A stretch of 64,000 nucleotides of DNA. Origin: Natronomonas pharaonis DSM 2160 (GTDB lineage Archaea > Halobacteriota > Halobacteria > Halobacteriales > Haloarculaceae). The position numbers and the translations under genes are program-made. The first letter of the stretch is position 1; the number at the start of each line of letters is the position of its first letter. Positions 29,029-39,808 of the stretch are shown here, one piece after another. The stretch lies in assembly GCF_000026045.1 (NCBI RefSeq), contig NC_007426.1, positions 620,001 to 684,000 on the forward strand. Reading direction: 5' to 3'. The notes below the pieces were generated by a model. That model searched no databases and was not told the DNA's origin. It saw only the letters and a program-made list of their open reading frames with translations.

Positions 29029-29639
29029 CGCCACCGAGTGTCGTTTTCGCGGACGACTTCGACCTCCCTGCCGGCGACCCGGAACTCGGTTACTGCGCAG
29101 TTGTCGAGATGGTGATTTTTCAGCGCAGCCGGCAGCGACAGGTCTCTGGCGTAGCCCAACAGCACATGCAGCGGCCCACCGTGTGTGACGACGAGTACCG
29201 TCTCGCCGGCATACCGGTCGCGGACGGTTTCGAATTGCCCTGTTACCCTGTCGGCCATGTCGCGCAGCGACTCACCGCCTTCGGGCAGCGCCAGCGTCGC
29301 CTCGTAGGCGGTTTCGCCGAGGCCGAATTCCGGGAACCTCGATTCGATGTCTTGGTAGGTGAGTCCTTGATACACGCCGAGGTCTCGCTCCCGCCAGCCC
29401 GGGTCGAATCGGACGTCGGCCGGCTCTGTCGCATCGAGGATTCGCTCTGCTGTCTGTTCCGTCCGATGGAGGTCTGAGGCGATGACACGGTCGATATCGT
29501 AGGTGTCGCTGAGCCACGACGCGGCGGCGGCCGCCTGCTCGTGGCCGGTTTCGTTGAGCGGGACCGGAGCCCAGCCCTGCATCCGCCCGTTGCGGTTCCA
29601 GTCGGTTTCGCCGTGCCGGACGGCGACGATTCGGGTCAC
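29025..29639 (-). CDS. Histidine phosphatase superfamily protein
   Basis: 204 residues, phosphoglycerate-mutase-like fold. Seen: RHGETDWN with the phospho-accepting His9, LHRTEQTAE (Arg59), ERDLG (Glu84) and VTHGGPLHVLLG (His153). Members include cofactor-dependent mutases, alpha-ribazole phosphatase and broad phosphatases; closeness to cobA is suggestive but not proof of a cobalamin role. It starts with GTG at 29639. Confidence 0.87.
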   Translation of the reverse strand: MTRIVAVRHGETDWNRNGRMQGWAPVPLNETGHEQAAAAASWLSDTYDIDRVIASDLHRTEQTAERILDATEPADVRFDPGWRERDLGVYQGLTYQDIESRFPEFGLGETAYEATLALPEGGESLRDMADRVTGQFETVRDRYAGETVLVVTHGGPLHVLLGYARDLSLPAALKNHHLDNCAVTEFRVAGREVEVVRENDTRWR

Positions 29640-29729
29640 GCTTCGGCAGTACGCTCCCGTCGCACATCAGCGTTCTCCACGGCATGTCTCGACCCAAATC
29701 CCGAAGACGGTTCCGCACCAGAAACGAGC

Positions 29730-30482
29730 ATGGACGCGCTTCCGGTGTCCGACGCCCCTGTCATCCGCCCTCGGTTTGTTGCCCTCGGCGCGTTCGGTGC
29801 CGGCGTTCCCGTGCTGGCTGCGCTTCGGGTGTCGGTTCTGTGGGCCGCCATCGCTGTCGCCGTTTGGCTCTGCATTCTCGGATACGCGTGGCATCTCCTC
29901 GGGGTTACGCGCCGCTCTGAACGGGCTCCGTGGGTGCGACTCGGAGTCGCAAACGCGGTAACGCTCTTCCGCGGGTGGTTGCTCGCACTTTTGGCGGGCG
30001 CTGCGGTCGTTTCGGCACCGCCGATGGGCCTTGTGACCAGTCTCTTTGTCCTTGCCGTGTCGTTGGATGCGGTCGACGGCGCGATTGCGAGACGGACGCA
30101 CGAGACGACGCTTGGAGCACGGTTGGACGCCGCGATGGACGCGCTTGCCGTCCTCGTCGGCAGCGTCGTCGCCGTCTCTGTCGGTGCGTTGCCGTGGTGG
30201 TACCTGGTTGCCGGGGGCGTCTGGTACGCGTACGCCGGGTCCCTGTCGCTCCGCAAGCGGGCCGGCCGTCCCGTCTTCAGCCTCCCGGAGAGCCGTCTTC
30301 GACCAGCCATCGGGGTCAGCCAGTTTCTCATCATCGGCGTGGCGCTTGCTCCCGTTGCCGTGCTCTCTGTGCCGGATGTGGTCGTAGCCATCGCCCTTGG
30401 GGCATTGTGTGTGAGTTTCGCCCGTGATTGGGCGGCCGCGACCGGCCGACTCGGCGAGTGTCAGGAGCAACGAGACCGGTGA
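29730..30482 (+). CDS. CDP-alcohol phosphatidyltransferase family membrane enzyme
   Basis: 250 residues with about six to seven membrane helices. The family motif is intact: D113-x2-D116-G-x2-A-R, then G129-x3-D133-x3-D137 (SLDAVDGAIARR to GARLDAAMDA), which binds the two metals and the CDP group. In archaea such enzymes make phospholipid head groups such as archaetidyl-glycerol, -serine or -inositol phosphates; the acceptor is not evident. Its 3' end overlaps the convergent ParB-like gene by 22 bases. Confidence 0.87.
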   Translation: MDALPVSDAPVIRPRFVALGAFGAGVPVLAALRVSVLWAAIAVAVWLCILGYAWHLLGVTRRSERAPWVRLGVANAVTLFRGWLLALLAGAAVVSAPPMGLVTSLFVLAVSLDAVDGAIARRTHETTLGARLDAAMDALAVLVGSVVAVSVGALPWWYLVAGGVWYAYAGSLSLRKRAGRPVFSLPESRLRPAIGVSQFLIIGVALAPVAVLSVPDVVVAIALGALCVSFARDWAAATGRLGECQEQRDR

Positions 30483-31186
30483 CCGGCGTCGGGATGGGTC
30501 GCCGCAACGTCTCCTCTCCGACGCTTCCGCTCCCACTCACGGTGGCGTCGGTGAACGAACACCGGCACCGCGTCGAGATGCAGCGTCTTTGCTATCGCCA
30601 GCCGGTGTTGTCCGTACCCACGCCACAGCAGCTCTCCGTTCCGGCCGATGTCGACGTTGATTTCGTCGAGTACCGGCACCCCTCCGGGAAGCTCCTCCTG
30701 CCGCCGGTAGCCGTCGTCGCGTATCGACTCGTAGAGCCGTCTCACGGTCCGACACCGCGTCTCGAAACCGTCCATTGAGGTGTGTCCCCAAGCGGTTCCG
30801 AACCGGTCGAGCTGGCGGCGGAACGCGGTTCGGAGCTCGGTTTCCGCCCACGGAACGCCTTCATCGACGTGTTGCCGGACCGCCACGGCCACCGGTCGGT
30901 CGGCGAACGGTGCCGTATCTACGTCCCACCGCCCGCCCACTGTGCGCCCCCATTGCGGATGTTTTGGTGCTGTCTCCAGAATGCTGTGGGTAATCCGGCT
31001 CGGGTCGACAGCGACGACACTGAACGGGTCGGCACTGGTCCAGTGCCGGGGAGCGGCCCGCCGCAGCAGTCGGTGTCCACGCCGTAATAGACCGAACGGA
31101 ACACGCTGTCGGAGTGGCGCTCCGGCGCGCTGTACCGACAGCGCGGCGACCCCACGGAGTCGTTTCCACGGCGTGTTTTCGGTCAT
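30461..31186 (-). CDS. ParB-like-domain hypothetical protein
   Basis: 241 residues, unusually rich in Arg for this organism. The central-C-terminal stretch (about 174-215) reads as a ParB/sulfiredoxin-like core: DEINVDIGRNGELLWRGYGQHRLAIAK followed by VPVFVHRRH. The remainder (DPSRITHSILETAPKHPQWGRTVGGRWD) resembles haloarchaeal proteins found near surface-glycan and mobile loci. No partition context (parA, parS) is near. It may be a nuclease-like or NTP-binding ParB relative; role unknown. ATG 31186 is preferred to an upstream start. Confidence 0.65.
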   Translation of the reverse strand: MTENTPWKRLRGVAALSVQRAGAPLRQRVPFGLLRRGHRLLRRAAPRHWTSADPFSVVAVDPSRITHSILETAPKHPQWGRTVGGRWDVDTAPFADRPVAVAVRQHVDEGVPWAETELRTAFRRQLDRFGTAWGHTSMDGFETRCRTVRRLYESIRDDGYRRQEELPGGVPVLDEINVDIGRNGELLWRGYGQHRLAIAKTLHLDAVPVFVHRRHREWERKRRRGDVAATHPDAGHRSRCS

Positions 31187-31226
31187 TGTTTGCCGCTCCG
31201 CTCGCGTCCGCGGCACCGAGTCGCGC

Positions 31227-31601
31227 TCACCGTCCCGGGAGTCCCTCGCGGTACAGCAGCACGACAAGCACGGCGACAAGGACCACTTGGGCCACCTTGT
31301 CGACGGCTTCGGGGGCCGAAATAGGTGGAATCGGTTGATTCAGCGCGAGCCACAGCACAATCTGCCCGGCGGTAAACGGCACTCCCAAGAGGTACACGAG
31401 CCGTCGCCGCCAGCCGACGACAATGGCTGCGATACCGGCGAGAAACCCGATGCCGGCGAATAGAAACGAAATGCCGAAGAGACCGTCGAGGTCCTGCGCG
31501 CCGAGGAAGAAATGCACCCCGGCGGTCACGAGTGCCGCACCGATGCCGACCCAGTGGAGCGGCGTTAACTGCCCCGCCTCCCCGCTTGCATTCCGTGTCA
31601 T
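31227..31601 (-). CDS. Four-helix membrane protein (DUF7475-like)
   Basis: 124 residues with four predicted membrane helices (about 15-33, 38-62, 66-86, 99-118) and a polar N-terminus. HWVGIGAALVTAGVHFFLG near the start resembles haloarchaeal membrane proteins of the DUF7475 kind, recalled from memory. It lies 40 bases upstream of the ParB-like gene on the same strand and is divergent from the four-gene operon at 31768. Function unknown. Confidence 0.72.
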   Translation of the reverse strand: MTRNASGEAGQLTPLHWVGIGAALVTAGVHFFLGAQDLDGLFGISFLFAGIGFLAGIAAIVVGWRRRLVYLLGVPFTAGQIVLWLALNQPIPPISAPEAVDKVAQVVLVAVLVVLLYREGLPGR

Positions 31602-31767: not shown

Positions 31768-32784
31768 GTGAGCACGACCGACGGCCGTGCGGTCCAGTTC
31801 ATCGGCCCTGAAGACGTCGACGTCGTTCCGTTACAGTCGCCGGAGCCTGACCCGGAGGGCGTCGTCGTCGAAACGCTCGTTTCCGCCATCAGCGCCGGGA
31901 CAGAACTTCTCGTTTACCACGGCGATGTCGATTCGGAGACGCTTGCCGACGAATCGCTGCCGGCGCTCGACGGGACGCTTTCGTATCCGGTTCGATACGG
32001 ATACTCCGCGGTCGGCCGTGTCGTTGCGACCGGCGCGGAGGTTGCCCCGGCTTGGCACGACCGGACTGTCTTTGCGTTCAATCCGCACGAGAGCCACTTC
32101 CGTGCCGAGCCGGAGGCGCTTCATGTCGTCCCTGAGGGGGTCTCTCCCGAACAGGCGGCGCTGTTTGCCAACGTCGAGACGGCGGTCAACTTTGCGCTCG
32201 ATGCGTCACCGCGGCTCGGCGAGCGCGTCGCCGTCTTCGGACAGGGCGTTGTCGGGCTCTTGACGACGGCGCTGCTCTCTGAGCTGCCGCTCGAGACGCT
32301 CGTTGCCGTCGAGCCCCATCCGTTTCGCCGCCAACTGGCCGCACGAATGGGGGCTGACGAAACTGTCGACCCGACAGCCGAGAACGCCGCGGCAGCCGTC
32401 GAAGAGCTGACAGACGGCGTTGACGTCGCAATCGAGGTCAGCGGCCAGCCGCAGACGCTTGAATCGGCGGTCGAGGCGACCCGGTACGACGGCCGCGTGC
32501 TCGTCGGCTCGTGGTACGGGACGAAACGCGAACCGCTCAGTCTCGGCGACCACTACCACCGAGGCCGAATCAGCATCGAAAGCAGCCAAGTCAGCACCAT
32601 CGACCCGTCGCTTCGGGGGCGGTGGGACCGCACCCGCCGCCGAAAGACCGCTTGGCGTCGGCTCCAGTCGCTTGACCTTGGGCCGCTTATCACCCACCGC
32701 GTCGATGTGGCCGAGGCCGGCTCCGCGTACCGACAGCTGACCGAACACCCCAACGAGACGCTACAGGTCTTGCTTACCTACTGA
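31768..32784 (+). CDS. MDR-family (zinc-type alcohol dehydrogenase-like) oxidoreductase
   Basis: 338 residues from GTG 31768. Seen: an N-terminal GroES-like domain (VSAISAGTELLVYHGD, YPVRYGYSAVGRVVATG), a Rossmann domain with VFGQGVVGLLTTALL, VAIEVSG and a C-terminal return to the first domain. The catalytic-zinc Cys is Ser (SAISAGTE) and the four structural-zinc Cys are absent, as in the BchC-like and quinone-reductase branches. First gene of a tightly coupled operon; its TGA shares a base with the next ATG. An in-frame start at 31684 exists but gives an atypical N-terminus. Confidence 0.85.
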   Translation: MSTTDGRAVQFIGPEDVDVVPLQSPEPDPEGVVVETLVSAISAGTELLVYHGDVDSETLADESLPALDGTLSYPVRYGYSAVGRVVATGAEVAPAWHDRTVFAFNPHESHFRAEPEALHVVPEGVSPEQAALFANVETAVNFALDASPRLGERVAVFGQGVVGLLTTALLSELPLETLVAVEPHPFRRQLAARMGADETVDPTAENAAAAVEELTDGVDVAIEVSGQPQTLESAVEATRYDGRVLVGSWYGTKREPLSLGDHYHRGRISIESSQVSTIDPSLRGRWDRTRRRKTAWRRLQSLDLGPLITHRVDVAEAGSAYRQLTEHPNETLQVLLTY

Positions 32785-33155
32785 TGTTCACTGTCACCGT
32801 CACCGAAACGTTCGTCGCACAGCATTTCCTGACGCTCCCGGACCCGCCTGCCGACGAGGCGACGCTTCACTCCCATACTTTCGAGGCGGAGGTCACCTTC
32901 CGCGGGCCCGAACTCGGACCGCACGGCTATCTGCTGGACATCGACGCCGCCCGCGAGGCGTTGTCAGCAGCCGCTGAGACGTACCGCGACGAGACGCTGA
33001 ACGACCATCTCGACGGCAACCCCAGCGTCGAGCGGCTGGCGGTCGCTCTCTTTGCGGACCTCTCGTCGCTCGAAGCGCCCGCCGTGACGGAGTTGACAGT
33101 CGCCATCAGCGAGGACGACACTGCCGTCGCGAGCTACACCGCAGCCGTCGACTGA
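32784..33155 (+). CDS. 6-pyruvoyl-tetrahydropterin synthase (PTPS/QueD)-fold protein
   Basis: 123 residues. The three zinc ligands of the family are visible: His14 (VAQHF) and His29, His31 (LHSHTF). Other matching elements are GYLLDIDAAREAL, LNDHLDGNPSVERLAVALF and a late Glu in ISEDDTAVASY. The catalytic Cys that abstracts a proton in PTPS and QueD is not present. It may therefore act on a related pterin, or lyse or bind one. It shares one-base TGATG junctions with both neighbours, so stoichiometric translation is likely. Confidence 0.8.
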   Translation: MFTVTVTETFVAQHFLTLPDPPADEATLHSHTFEAEVTFRGPELGPHGYLLDIDAAREALSAAAETYRDETLNDHLDGNPSVERLAVALFADLSSLEAPAVTELTVAISEDDTAVASYTAAVD

Positions 33156-34207
33156 TGCACGTTGGACTCGTCGTCGCCGGCGACATCGACAGCGGCTCCG
33201 GCGGCTTCTACTACGACCGGCGGCTCCGCGAGCGGCTGTCCGCACGCGGCCACGACGTGACCGTCGTTTCCGTGCCGCGTGGCTCCTACGGCCGCCAGCT
33301 GCTTGCCGCCCTCTCGCCGCGGCGTCTCGACCTTCGCGGCCGATTCGATGTCGTCGTCGAGGACGGACTGGCACAGCCGGCGCTGTTGGCTGTTAACCGA
33401 GTGCTTCGTGTGCCAACCGTCGCAGTCGTCCACATGCTCCGGTCACAGGCGGCGTCGACGGCACCGCTGGCGGTCCGTGTCGCCGAGCGGTCGTTCCTCC
33501 GGAGCTGTGATGCCGCCATCTACAACAGCGCCGCGACAAAACAGGCGGGGACACGGCTCGCGTCACCGCCGCATACGGCCGTCATCCCGCCCGGCCGGGA
33601 CCGCTTCGACCTGCCGCGGCCCAGCCGCTCGTCCGTCCGACAGCGAGCCGGTGAGGGACCGCTTTCGGTCGTCTTTCTCGGCAACGTCGTCGAACGAAAG
33701 GGCCTCGATACGCTCTTGGAGGGCCTGGCGGCGCTTGACGCCGACTGGCGGCTGACCGTCGTCGGCGACACGACTGTCGACCCTGCGTATACGGCGTCGA
33801 CCCGGAAACTGGCCCGACGGCTCGCCATCGACGACCGCGTGACGTATGCCGGCCGGCTTCCCGACGCGGAGGTTGCAGCCCACCTCCGTCGTGGGCACGC
33901 TCTCGCCGTTCCGTCGCGATACGAGCCGTTCGGGATGGCGTATCTGGAGGCGATGGGCTACGGCTGCGTCCCGATAGCGACGACCAACGGCGGCCCAGCC
34001 GAGTTCATCCGTGACGGCGAGACTGGCTGTCTGGTCCCGCCGGAATCGCCGGCCGCCATCACTGACCGATTGGCCGAACTCGCGGACCGCGAGACGCTTG
34101 CTGCGATTTCGACAGCGGCGCTTTCGGCCTTTGAGCAACACCCGACATGGGAAGTGACGCTCGACGACGCCGTCGATTTCTTGGAGGCACAATGTCAGAC
34201 CACGTGA
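33155..34207 (+). CDS. GT4-family glycosyltransferase
   Basis: 350 residues, GT-B fold. Seen: an N-terminal acceptor domain with a Gly-rich loop (DIDSGSGGFYYDRRLRERL), and a C-terminal donor domain with VVFLGNVVERKGLDTLLEGL, VTYAGRLPDAEVAAHLRRG and the EPFGMAYLEAMGYG motif (E-x7-E) of retaining family 4. It would move a nucleotide sugar to an acceptor, possibly a product of the two upstream enzymes. Third gene of the operon; its end overlaps the methyltransferase by 16 bases. Confidence 0.88.
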   Translation: MHVGLVVAGDIDSGSGGFYYDRRLRERLSARGHDVTVVSVPRGSYGRQLLAALSPRRLDLRGRFDVVVEDGLAQPALLAVNRVLRVPTVAVVHMLRSQAASTAPLAVRVAERSFLRSCDAAIYNSAATKQAGTRLASPPHTAVIPPGRDRFDLPRPSRSSVRQRAGEGPLSVVFLGNVVERKGLDTLLEGLAALDADWRLTVVGDTTVDPAYTASTRKLARRLAIDDRVTYAGRLPDAEVAAHLRRGHALAVPSRYEPFGMAYLEAMGYGCVPIATTNGGPAEFIRDGETGCLVPPESPAAITDRLAELADRETLAAISTAALSAFEQHPTWEVTLDDAVDFLEAQCQTT

Positions 34208-34989
34208 GCTATCTGGAGGCCAAACGCCCGCTTGATGACCGTTCGCTGGACCGGGATGTACTGTCGGCGTTCGTCGACGCGCTGCCGGCCTCCCCGACGG
34301 TGCTCGAAGCCGGCTGCGGCACCGCGACGATGCCGGAACGGCTTTTCGAGTGGGGGCTCCTCGACGCCGGGACGTGGGTCGCCGTCGATAGCCACGCGGC
34401 CGCCGTCACGGCCGGCCGTGACCGCCTCGCCGGTCGGCCGGACGCAACGCGAAACGGCGACACGGTGTCGCTCGGAGACCTCACAGTCGAGTTCGTCGTC
34501 GCTGATGTCTTCGAGCACATCGGTGGTAGCCGCCGACGCTTCGATGCCGTTGTCGGAAACGCGTTTTTCGATATCGTCGACATCGAGCGGGCGCTTTCGA
34601 CGTTCCGCCCCTGTACAGACCTCGTGTACGCGCCGATAACGTACAACGGCGAAACGACCGTCGCACCACCGATGGAGCCCGACGAACAGGTGTTCGCCCG
34701 GTACGAAGAGCACATGCGGAGCTACCGCCCCGGGCATCCGGAAGCGGCCCGACGCCTGCGGGCGGCGCTCGCGGAGCCGCTTGCCGACGCCGCCTCTCCG
34801 TGGCGAATTGAGCCGCCGTACACGGCGGCAGAACGGACTGTTCTCCGGCATCTCATCGAGACGATTCGGACCGCAGTCGGCGAGACGGGCCTCGATGCCG
34901 ACGCGTGGGCGCGACAGCGGCGGGCACAGGTTGCCGACGGGCGGCTTAGATACGAGGCGGCAAACCGGGACGTTCTCGGGCGCATCTAG
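34192..34989 (+). CDS. Class I SAM-dependent methyltransferase
   Basis: 265 residues. Seen: motif I VLEAGCGTATMPERL, a post-I acid (VAVDSHAAAVTAG), FVVADVFEH and FDAVVGNAFFDIVD, with a C-terminal extension (about 160-265) rich in Arg and Glu that could form the acceptor lid. The acceptor is unknown; the operon context suggests a small molecule handled by the dehydrogenase, PTPS-fold protein and glycosyltransferase. It overlaps the glycosyltransferase gene and converges on tatC. Confidence 0.85.
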   Translation: MSDHVSYLEAKRPLDDRSLDRDVLSAFVDALPASPTVLEAGCGTATMPERLFEWGLLDAGTWVAVDSHAAAVTAGRDRLAGRPDATRNGDTVSLGDLTVEFVVADVFEHIGGSRRRFDAVVGNAFFDIVDIERALSTFRPCTDLVYAPITYNGETTVAPPMEPDEQVFARYEEHMRSYRPGHPEAARRLRAALAEPLADAASPWRIEPPYTAAERTVLRHLIETIRTAVGETGLDADAWARQRRAQVADGRLRYEAANRDVLGRI

Positions 34990-38269: not shown

Positions 38270-38449
38270 ATGCCCAAGATAAGCGTCGAAATCCCACAGG
38301 AGCTGCTTGCGGACCTTGACGAACACGTCGGCGACGACGGCAAGTTCGTCAACCGAAGCGACGCCGTCCGTGCCTCTATCCGGAAAACGCTCGACATGCT
38401 CGACGAGATCGACGCTCGACACGACCGGCTCGATGAGAACGATGAGTGA
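38270..38449 (+). CDS. Ribbon-helix-helix (CopG-type) transcriptional regulator
   Basis: 59 residues: a beta strand KISVEIPQELLADLDEHV, then two helices with FVNRSDAVRASIRKTLDML, the classic RHH pattern where the strand enters the DNA major groove as a dimer, and an acidic tail. The stop lies 8 bases inside the following yhhQ gene, so the pair is cotranscribed and coupled. It probably regulates its own operon through the tandem repeats in front of it. Confidence 0.9.
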   Translation: MPKISVEIPQELLADLDEHVGDDGKFVNRSDAVRASIRKTLDMLDEIDARHDRLDENDE

Positions 38450-39161
38450 TACCGCCCGTCGCCCGTCCCCGCCGGCGGGCGCAGTCTTCCTTGCGGCCGT
38501 CTTCGTCGCCTCGCTGGCGACCGCCCAGCTCACCGCCGCGAAGGTACTGTCGTTCGACCTGCCGTTTGCGCTGCCGCTTGCGGGCGCTGAGTTGGCGCTT
38601 CCCGGCGCGGCGCTGGCGTATGCACTGACGTTTCTGGCCTCCGACTGCTACACCGAGCTCTACGGCAAACGCGCCGCGCAGGTACTCGTCAACGTCGCGT
38701 TCGCGATGAACTTCCTCGTGCTCGCGTTGGTCTGGAGTACGATTCTCGCTCCGGCGGCCCCCTCCAGCATCGACCCCGAATCCTTCGAGCTGGTTTTGGG
38801 CGCGTCGACGAACATCGTCGCCGGGAGCCTGCTGGCCTATGTGGTCAGCCAGAACTACGACGTCGTCGTCTTCCATCGCCTCGGCGAGCTGACCGACGGC
38901 GACCACCTGTGGCTCCGTAACATCGCCTCGACGGGGACGAGCCAGTTGCTAGACACCGTCATCTTCGTCAGCATCGCCTTCTGGGTCTTCCCCCAATACG
39001 TCGGCCTCGGTCCCGAACTCCCGGCTGCCGCCGTCGTCTCGCTGATGGTCGGCCAGTACCTCCTGAAACTGCTCATCGCTGTCGTCGATACGCCGTTTGT
39101 CTACCTCATCACGGGCGCGGTGCGGCGCTACACCGACCCGGCGCCGTCACCGGCGCGGTGA
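38442..39161 (+). CDS. yhhQ: YhhQ/VUT-family transporter, queuosine or archaeosine precursor
   Basis: 239 residues with six to seven membrane helices. Family patterns: LATAQLTAAKVLSF in the first helix, YALTFLASDCYTELYGK and LRNIASTGTSQLLDTVIFV. Bacterial YhhQ imports the 7-deazaguanine precursors preQ0/preQ1; in an archaeon the product would feed archaeosine in tRNA. It overlaps the RHH gene by 8 bases, which suggests precursor-responsive control. Confidence 0.88.
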   Translation: MSDTARRPSPPAGAVFLAAVFVASLATAQLTAAKVLSFDLPFALPLAGAELALPGAALAYALTFLASDCYTELYGKRAAQVLVNVAFAMNFLVLALVWSTILAPAAPSSIDPESFELVLGASTNIVAGSLLAYVVSQNYDVVVFHRLGELTDGDHLWLRNIASTGTSQLLDTVIFVSIAFWVFPQYVGLGPELPAAAVVSLMVGQYLLKLLIAVVDTPFVYLITGAVRRYTDPAPSPAR

Positions 39162-39214: not shown

Positions 39215-39808
39215 ATGTTCACCGGAATCGTCGAGGCGACCGGCGACGTCGCCGCCGTCGAAGACACCGACGAGGGCCGCAGAATCCGCGTTACCGCCCC
39301 GTTCTGTGACGAACTCGAACACGGCCAAAGCGTCGCCATAAGCGGCGCGTGTCTGACCGTCGAAGCGTGGGACGACGAGAGCTTCGAGTTATTTCTCTCC
39401 GAAGAGACGCTCGAAAAGACCTATCTCGACGAGGTGGCGGTCGGCGACCCGGTTAATCTCGAACGCGCGCTGCCCGCCGACGGCCGCTTCGACGGCCACT
39501 TCGTGCAGGGCCACGTCGACGGCGTCGCCGAGGTGACCGCCATCGAAGGGACCGACGGCGACGACTGGACGTTCGGCTTCTCGCTGCCGTCGTCGCTTGC
39601 TCCGTACGTCGTCGACAAAGGCTCGATAGCCGTCGACGGCATCTCGTTGACCGTCGCCGAACTGCGAGCGGACGACTTCTCTGTCGCCGTGATTCCGGCA
39701 ACCTACGAGCTGACGACGCTGTCGTCGAAGTCGGTCGGGGACCCGGTTCATATCGAGGTCGACGTTGTCGCCAAATACGTCGAGCGGCTGACCGAGGGGT
39801 ATCGGTAG
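39215..39808 (+). CDS. ribE: Riboflavin synthase, bacterial type
   Basis: 197 residues made of two lumazine-binding repeats: MFTGIVEATGDVAAV with GACLTVE (first) and HFVQGHVDGVAEVTAI with GSIAVDGISLTV (second). It dismutates two 6,7-dimethyl-8-ribityllumazines to riboflavin. Most archaea use an unrelated synthase; this bacterial form is characteristic of haloarchaea. It is a single gene between yhhQ and nmd3, with short gaps on both sides. Confidence 0.95.
   Translation: MFTGIVEATGDVAAVEDTDEGRRIRVTAPFCDELEHGQSVAISGACLTVEAWDDESFELFLSEETLEKTYLDEVAVGDPVNLERALPADGRFDGHFVQGHVDGVAEVTAIEGTDGDDWTFGFSLPSSLAPYVVDKGSIAVDGISLTVAELRADDFSVAVIPATYELTTLSSKSVGDPVHIEVDVVAKYVERLTEGYR

Follow-up and report, generated by a model that had tools for sequence, protein, structure and literature searches.

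A conserved haloarchaeal operon around a non-canonical PTPS-fold protein, related to a bacterial cluster and proposed to draw on the riboflavin branch

The DNA considered here is a 64,000-nucleotide window (positions 620,001 to 684,000 of NC_007426.1) of the 2.6-Mb chromosome of the haloarchaeon Natronomonas pharaonis DSM 2160, in which four translationally coupled plus-strand genes at 31768-34989 form an operon encoding a dehydrogenase, a protein of the 6-pyruvoyltetrahydropterin synthase (PTPS) fold, a glycosyltransferase and a methyltransferase. The operon adds an archaeal form to a bacterial cluster that had been described in part, and the genes that the two share suggest, with a probability of about one half, that this cross-domain cluster turns GTP, via an early riboflavin intermediate, into a pterin-like molecule that carries a sugar and a methyl group. 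A preliminary description of the window had put forward an undescribed pathway; the bacterial PTPS-IV branch (PMC5445326; PMC5041015) and the structure of SCO6650 (3d7j) were already known, and the novelty lies in the shared haloarchaeal operon, of which no published account was found in the open-access literature. The four genes are:

31768..32784, plus strand: zinc-less medium-chain dehydrogenase/reductase (MDR), BchC/threonine-dehydrogenase-like, operon gene 1; GTG start, 338 aa, ADH_zinc_N 8e-18
32784..33155, plus strand: PTPS/T-fold protein of the ExxxHSH type, SCO6650/PTPS-IV branch; ATG start, 123 aa, PF01242 4.8e-20
33155..34207, plus strand: retaining glycosyltransferase of family GT4; ATG start, 350 aa, Glycos_transf_1 (PF00534) 8.5e-31
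34192..34989, plus strand: class I S-adenosylmethionine (SAM)-dependent methyltransferase of a cluster-specific family; ATG start, 265 aa, Methyltransf_25 2.2e-5

Both the coordinates and the joins reported earlier were reproduced. The stop and start codons of the MDR and PTPS genes (32782-32786, TACTGATGTTC) and those of the PTPS and GT4 genes (33153-33157, GACTGATGCAC) overlap by one base in the sequence TGATG, and the GT4 and methyltransferase genes overlap by 16 bases (34192-34207). Pfam support is strong for the first three products and weak for the methyltransferase, whose Methyltransf_25 match falls slightly below the cut-off of that family; its start at 34192 is favored over an upstream ATG at 34147 because relatives begin with YLEAKR-VDDRA.

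Conservation of the unit was surveyed in 109 genomes of the same family, each at least 90% complete. The PTPS gene is present in 48 of them, and these very 48 are the genomes in which the methyltransferase profile matches strongly (E below 1e-71), the best match in the other 61 being a 92-residue fragment (2.5e-13). Presence and absence of the operon are mixed within nine genera, which makes it probable that they were gained or lost jointly on many occasions. Among the 48 loci examined with their flanks, an MDR gene is found in 46, the methyltransferase in 47, a Gfo/Idh-aldo/keto reductase fusion in 40, a DUF7475 protein in 40 and the GTP cyclohydrolase ArfA in 33; a CDP-alcohol phosphatidyltransferase lies within 7 kb in 42, and 27 loci carry the window type of GT4 gene, 16 another type. 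The genes thus travel together in relatives rather than being scattered, as the preliminary description had supposed in assigning the dehydrogenase, glycosyltransferase and methyltransferase to the PTPS gene, and the identical presence and absence of PTPS and methyltransferase genes, together with the cross-domain gene order set out below, rules out a chance adjacency of the four. The four-gene unit is real and conserved, but it proves larger than first described, as in most relatives it includes the CDP-alcohol phosphatidyltransferase and DUF7475 genes. In the window these are:

29541..30482, plus strand: CDP-alcohol phosphatidyltransferase, conserved neighbor; PF01066 8e-12, coordinates counted from the first start of the open reading frame, the real start probably lying further in
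31227..31601, minus strand: DUF7475 small membrane protein, conserved haloarchaeal neighbor; PF24287 2.2e-11

Several loci depart from the common arrangement. In about a third (L057, L063 and L082 among them) the window-type GT4 is replaced by a different GT4, encoded on the opposite strand beside the Gfo/Idh-aldo/keto reductase fusion, a possible case of non-orthologous displacement. The cluster is split in two genomes (L049 and L052, at G012:C63 and G009:C11), with an MDR-PTPS pair at one site and, at a second, the GT4 and methyltransferase genes with a degenerate second PTPS copy altered in its histidine and C-terminal regions. In Haloarcula marismortui (L095; plasmid record NC_006395.1) the PTPS gene is apparently broken, giving a two-piece match with an internal stop, while the MDR, GT4 and methyltransferase genes still adjoin. 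A 92-residue frame with a fragment of the cluster methyltransferase, at G037:C1:602867-603100 in a genome lacking the operon, is likely a relic.

Beyond the family, PTPS genes of this type occur across several families within the order. In a low-GC (33%) archaeon that belongs to the same phylum, the genes run MT-RibA-MDR-PTPS-GT (MT, methyltransferase; GT, glycosyltransferase) with a creatininase gene next, and another archaeon has an MDR-PTPS pair with the PTPS motif FGPETRLHGH. The bacterial distribution was drawn from plasmid records and from 80 Streptomyces loci, 66 of them with full flanks. In 65 of these 66, MDR, glycosyltransferase, methyltransferase, creatininase, GTP cyclohydrolase II and CDP-alcohol phosphatidyltransferase genes can each be detected, and MDR-PTPS-(GT)-MT arrangements, on rhizobial and gammaproteobacterial replicons among others, are found in plasmid records of Methylosinus, Thiodictyon, Rhizobium, Peteryoungia, Agrobacterium, Neorhizobium, Palleronia and Microbacterium, with varying additions of RibA, RibD, CDP-alcohol phosphatidyltransferase, LPG_synthase_TM and cytochrome b561. 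Haloarchaeal profiles retrieve the collinear bacterial genes (MDR at 1e-58 to 1e-70, GT to 2e-53, MT to 9e-24 and PTPS to 6e-19), and among plasmid-borne MDRs, those encoded beside PTPS-IV genes are nearest to the window MDR outside the haloarchaea (107-150 bits, against at most 85 for others). The Streptomyces cluster of the SCO6650-SCO6655 type resembles the operon in having four homologous genes in the same order, an adjacent CDP-alcohol phosphatidyltransferase, a PTPS-fold protein that has lost its triad residues and a zinc-less MDR. It differs in its PTPS-fold protein (FGPAQ and HGA, a zinc His being lost and Ala standing for Cys, versus PGPEG and HSH in haloarchaea), in its source enzyme, a RibA variant in place of ArfA, and in its creatininase, which does not adjoin the window operon. 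For SCO6650 and SCO6655 the open-access literature gave a single hit, whose abstract holds no functional data.

The PTPS-fold protein is neither QueD nor a canonical PTPS, to judge from its residues. As described earlier, the three His zinc ligands are kept (AQH and HSH) and the catalytic Cys is absent. The preliminary description expected the first step to differ from QueD and PTPS on this ground, and the residue picture can be refined: alignment places a Glu, invariant in the archaeal family, exactly at the QueD Cys column (ExxxHSH, where haloarchaeal QueD has CxxxHGH), and the catalytic Asp-His pair is also gone from both the archaeal and bacterial branches, the WDHRF/LDHHY of QueD aligning with YRDELLN. 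The bacterial branch has Ala at the Cys position and lacks one zinc His (FGPAQxxHGA). Both branches retain the anchors of the pterin ring in the T-fold, namely the (S/T)xE motif and the C-terminal Glu. In these anchors, in the fold and in the zinc histidines the protein is akin to QueD (PTPS-I), PTPS-II and PTPS-III, but their CxxxHGH, CxxxxxHGH and ExxHGH motifs and the Asp-His pair are missing, the Glu of ExxxHSH lying one residue farther from HxH than that of PTPS-III.

In the tree, the haloarchaeal operon proteins and the bacterial SCO6650/PTPS-IV group are split from haloarchaeal QueD with support of 100/98, and this shared clade, with a neighborhood of RibA/RibD_C type (ArfA, RibA or RibD), places them with PTPS-IV of COG0720. 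Published motifs are CxxxxxHGH for PTPS-II and ExxHGH for PTPS-III (PMC5041015) and, as the PTPS-IV signature, FGPAQ (PMC5445326; PMC5041015); PF00925 and PF01872 were found to neighbor PTPS-IV genes with AGeNNT (PMC5445326), as they do in the bacterial clusters here, and the function of PTPS-V has been given as unclear (PMC5041015). The haloarchaeal proteins lack FGPAQ, PGPEG aligning at that place; in a related archaeon the motif reads FGPET and is accompanied by HGH. A sequence-only search returned 3d7j, SCO6650 of S. coelicolor, as the top PDB match, and a predicted structure (pLDDT 77) confirmed the PTPS fold with the same top match, which is partly built in, as the input comprised the window protein and 14 Streptomyces relatives. 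Also among the structure matches are E37 catalytic-residue mutants of the Plasmodium PTPS (3lze and 3m0n); because Glu is catalytic in that enzyme, the archaeal protein may still be active. Public records label these genes as 6-carboxytetrahydropterin synthase or queuosine biosynthesis, the non-canonical PTPS groups being part of a textbook case of paralogue misannotation.

The other three enzymes carry recognizable signatures. In the MDR the catalytic zinc ligands (Cys38 and the His-Glu pair) are replaced, SAGTE...YGYSAVG standing against GxC...GHE, in all haloarchaeal and bacterial cluster members compared, so that the label of zinc-dependent alcohol dehydrogenase is rejected. The GT4 enzyme, conserved in archaeal and bacterial clusters, has an EX7E motif whose residues E257 and E265 are invariant across domains. 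The methyltransferase has the Rossmann SAM motif I (E/DxGxG) as LEAGCGTAT, and the structures matched by its profile are those of class I enzymes, glycine N-methyltransferase among them.

The genes that accompany the cluster point to its substrate. A second ArfA copy is present in 29 of the 48 genomes with the operon and in 5 of the 61 without it (Fisher 4e-9, uncorrected for relatedness). Of 74 copies of RibA (GTP cyclohydrolase II) from the Streptomyces clusters, 70 carry AM instead of AY, with creatininase alongside in 65 of 66 loci, and in the clusters of Palleronia and the low-GC archaeon RibA has AY or SY. The Tyr-to-Met form, SCO6655, is reported to yield only the formylamino-pyrimidine, after which a deformylase would be required, and ArfA and ArfB act likewise in archaea; the creatininase fits this need. 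RibD-type proteins of the bacterial clusters consist of the reductase domain only, the deaminase domain being missing, and one that was tested matches TIGR01508 (2,5-diamino-6-ribosylamino-pyrimidinone phosphate reductase) below its cut-off. There are thus three recurrent sources of one early riboflavin intermediate, namely ArfA, the AM variant of RibA with creatininase, and RibA with AY or SY. Since the neighbors across domains are an ArfA or RibA cyclohydrolase, creatininase and a deaminase-less RibD reductase, the pathway most likely starts from a 2-aminopyrimidinone of the riboflavin branch and not from dihydroneopterin triphosphate made by FolE. The earlier idea of a pterin pathway is partly supported: the conserved pathway unit stands, and the gene neighbors do not point to a supply of the FolE/QueD type. 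Within one genus (G080-G086), ArfA is absent from four genomes (G082-G085) and reduced to fragments beside the operon in G080 and G081, and the sole copy of G086 lies in the operon.

What is observed is how the genes are ordered, that they occur together, that they have homologues in another domain, which residues have changed and which genes adjoin; from this the reactions and product may be inferred as follows. ArfA in haloarchaea, or elsewhere RibA or its Tyr-to-Met variant with a creatininase-type deformylase, would act on GTP to give 2,5-diamino-6-ribosylamino-4(3H)-pyrimidinone 5'-phosphate, in which a deaminase-less reductase (RibD-type in bacteria) would convert the sugar to ribityl with retention of the 2-amino group. 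The zinc-less MDR could then oxidize the C2' hydroxyl of the side chain to a ketone, and this reduction followed by C2' oxidation would lead to the skeleton that GTP cyclohydrolase I reaches in its Amadori step. The T-fold protein would hold the 2-aminopyrimidinone by (S/T)xE and the C-terminal Glu while the 5-amino group condenses with the ketone; this would form a dihydropterin whose side chain resembles that of neopterin, and GTP cyclohydrolase I would be bypassed. In the archaeal protein, Glu at the former Cys position would serve as acid/base and zinc may polarize the ketone. Finally, the GT4 enzyme and the methyltransferase would glycosylate and methylate the dihydropterin, and the CDP-alcohol phosphatidyltransferase, with a flippase-like protein in bacteria, would attach the product to a lipid or phospho-alcohol. 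The first two steps are better supported than the last three, and the gene set says more about where the route begins than about where it ends. That this is a pterin route free of GTP cyclohydrolase I, separate from folate, queuosine, biopterin and F420 and common to haloarchaea, actinobacteria and proteobacteria, is less likely than not.

A glycosylated pterin as the end product is itself only an inference. The cyanobacterial PgtA and Sulfolobus solfapterin pathways start from neopterin or biopterin made by FolE, and no link is known between them and clusters of ArfA/RibA, MDR or CDP-alcohol phosphatidyltransferase genes. The product class is plausible because glycosylated pterins are known in cyanobacteria and, as solfapterin, in Sulfolobus (PMC3546692; PMC13259868); a glycosyltransferase would perform a step of the same type here. 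If correct, a lipid-linked or exported glyco-pterin would constitute a new pterin class in archaea and bacteria.

Several observations weigh against this pathway. The enzyme activities are predicted and the sequence of steps is a guess; such MDR enzymes could reduce as well as oxidize, and the loss of a zinc His (HGA) and the Ala of the bacterial branch, versus the archaeal Glu, mean that the two branches may catalyze non-identical steps. The link to a second ArfA is strong in genera g3, g4 and g13 and absent in g1, g7 and g10, and is phylogenetically non-independent. In the window genome the single ArfA lies 1.36 Mb from the operon, and neither RibD nor creatininase is found beside the operon, where the first two steps would thus depend on housekeeping riboflavin genes; the Gfo/Idh-aldo/keto reductase fusion is absent from this genome and is therefore rejected as an essential part in this species. 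Certain bacterial clusters are without a glycosyltransferase or CDP-alcohol phosphatidyltransferase (L186), and on a plasmid of Streptomyces sp. NBC_00028 (L193) a PTPS-IV gene stands alone with no cluster around it.

The same upstream enzymes, conserved and belonging to the riboflavin branch, could feed a flavin- or lumazine-type product, the T-fold protein acting on a pyrimidine and forming no pterin ring. This is unlikely, as the cluster RibD is without a deaminase domain, so that the 2-amino group of a pterin should be kept, and as the rings usually bound by the anchor Glu of the T-fold are of the 2-amino-4-oxo type, which is established for PTPS and QueD. Less probable still is a glycolipid or inositol-like head-group pathway comprising MDR, Gfo/Idh, aldo/keto reductase, glycosyltransferase and CDP-alcohol phosphatidyltransferase, with the T-fold protein recruited for a sugar reaction. 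The CDP-alcohol phosphatidyltransferase, PAP2 and polyol-type oxidoreductases often adjoin, and the window CDP-alcohol phosphatidyltransferase weakly resembles archaetidylinositol phosphate synthase, but the recurrence of ArfA and RibA, two unrelated cyclohydrolase families, and of RibD and creatininase would be left unexplained.

A role in coenzyme F420 synthesis, which has been stated for PTPS-IV from unpublished work (PMC5041015) and would accord with ArfA and RibD supplying riboflavin and F420 alike, is improbable on the present evidence. Homologues of CofH, all matching below the curated cut-off and so not confirmed as CofH, are found in 109 of 109 family genomes and the operon in 48, a distribution by which an essential F420 role is rejected; known F420 synthesis has no place for a glycosyltransferase, methyltransferase or CDP-alcohol phosphatidyltransferase, and membership in a pathway shared with bacteria narrows the substrate to a riboflavin-branch intermediate and speaks against the proposed role. 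That the PTPS gene is the QueD of this genome for archaeosine, coupled to the others by chance, is most improbable: it is the sole PTPS-family gene and arcTGT is present, but the CxxxHGH motif and Asp-His pair are lost, QueD forms a separate family in other haloarchaea, QueC is represented in the genome only by partial PF06508 matches of about 60 residues, and a queuosine-precursor transporter 3.3 kb downstream fits preQ0 uptake; the QueD role is rejected on the motif, the lost pair and the lack of QueC.

The haloarchaeal gene and the Streptomyces SCO6650 cluster belong to one multi-gene pathway, for which a riboflavin-branch route is the preferred explanation and Haloferax volcanii would offer a genetically easy archaeal model. 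Its locus is probably HVO_1281-HVO_1284, to judge by how the genes are ordered and by HVO_1284 being the tag of arfA; nothing on HVO_1281-1283 was found in the open-access literature.

Other genes in the vicinity may be mentioned. The minus-strand open reading frame at 30461-31279 (272 aa) has no Pfam match; a close relative has a conserved counterpart (L041, 51%) next to its operon. The queuosine-precursor transporter (Vut_1, TIGR00697) is encoded at 38307-39161 on the plus strand, and because it and arcTGT are present whereas full-length QueC and QueD are absent, archaeosine probably depends on imported preQ0. A riboflavin synthase of bacterial type with two lumazine-binding domains is encoded at 39215-39808 (plus strand), 4 kb from the operon, flanked by this transporter gene and an NMD3 gene.

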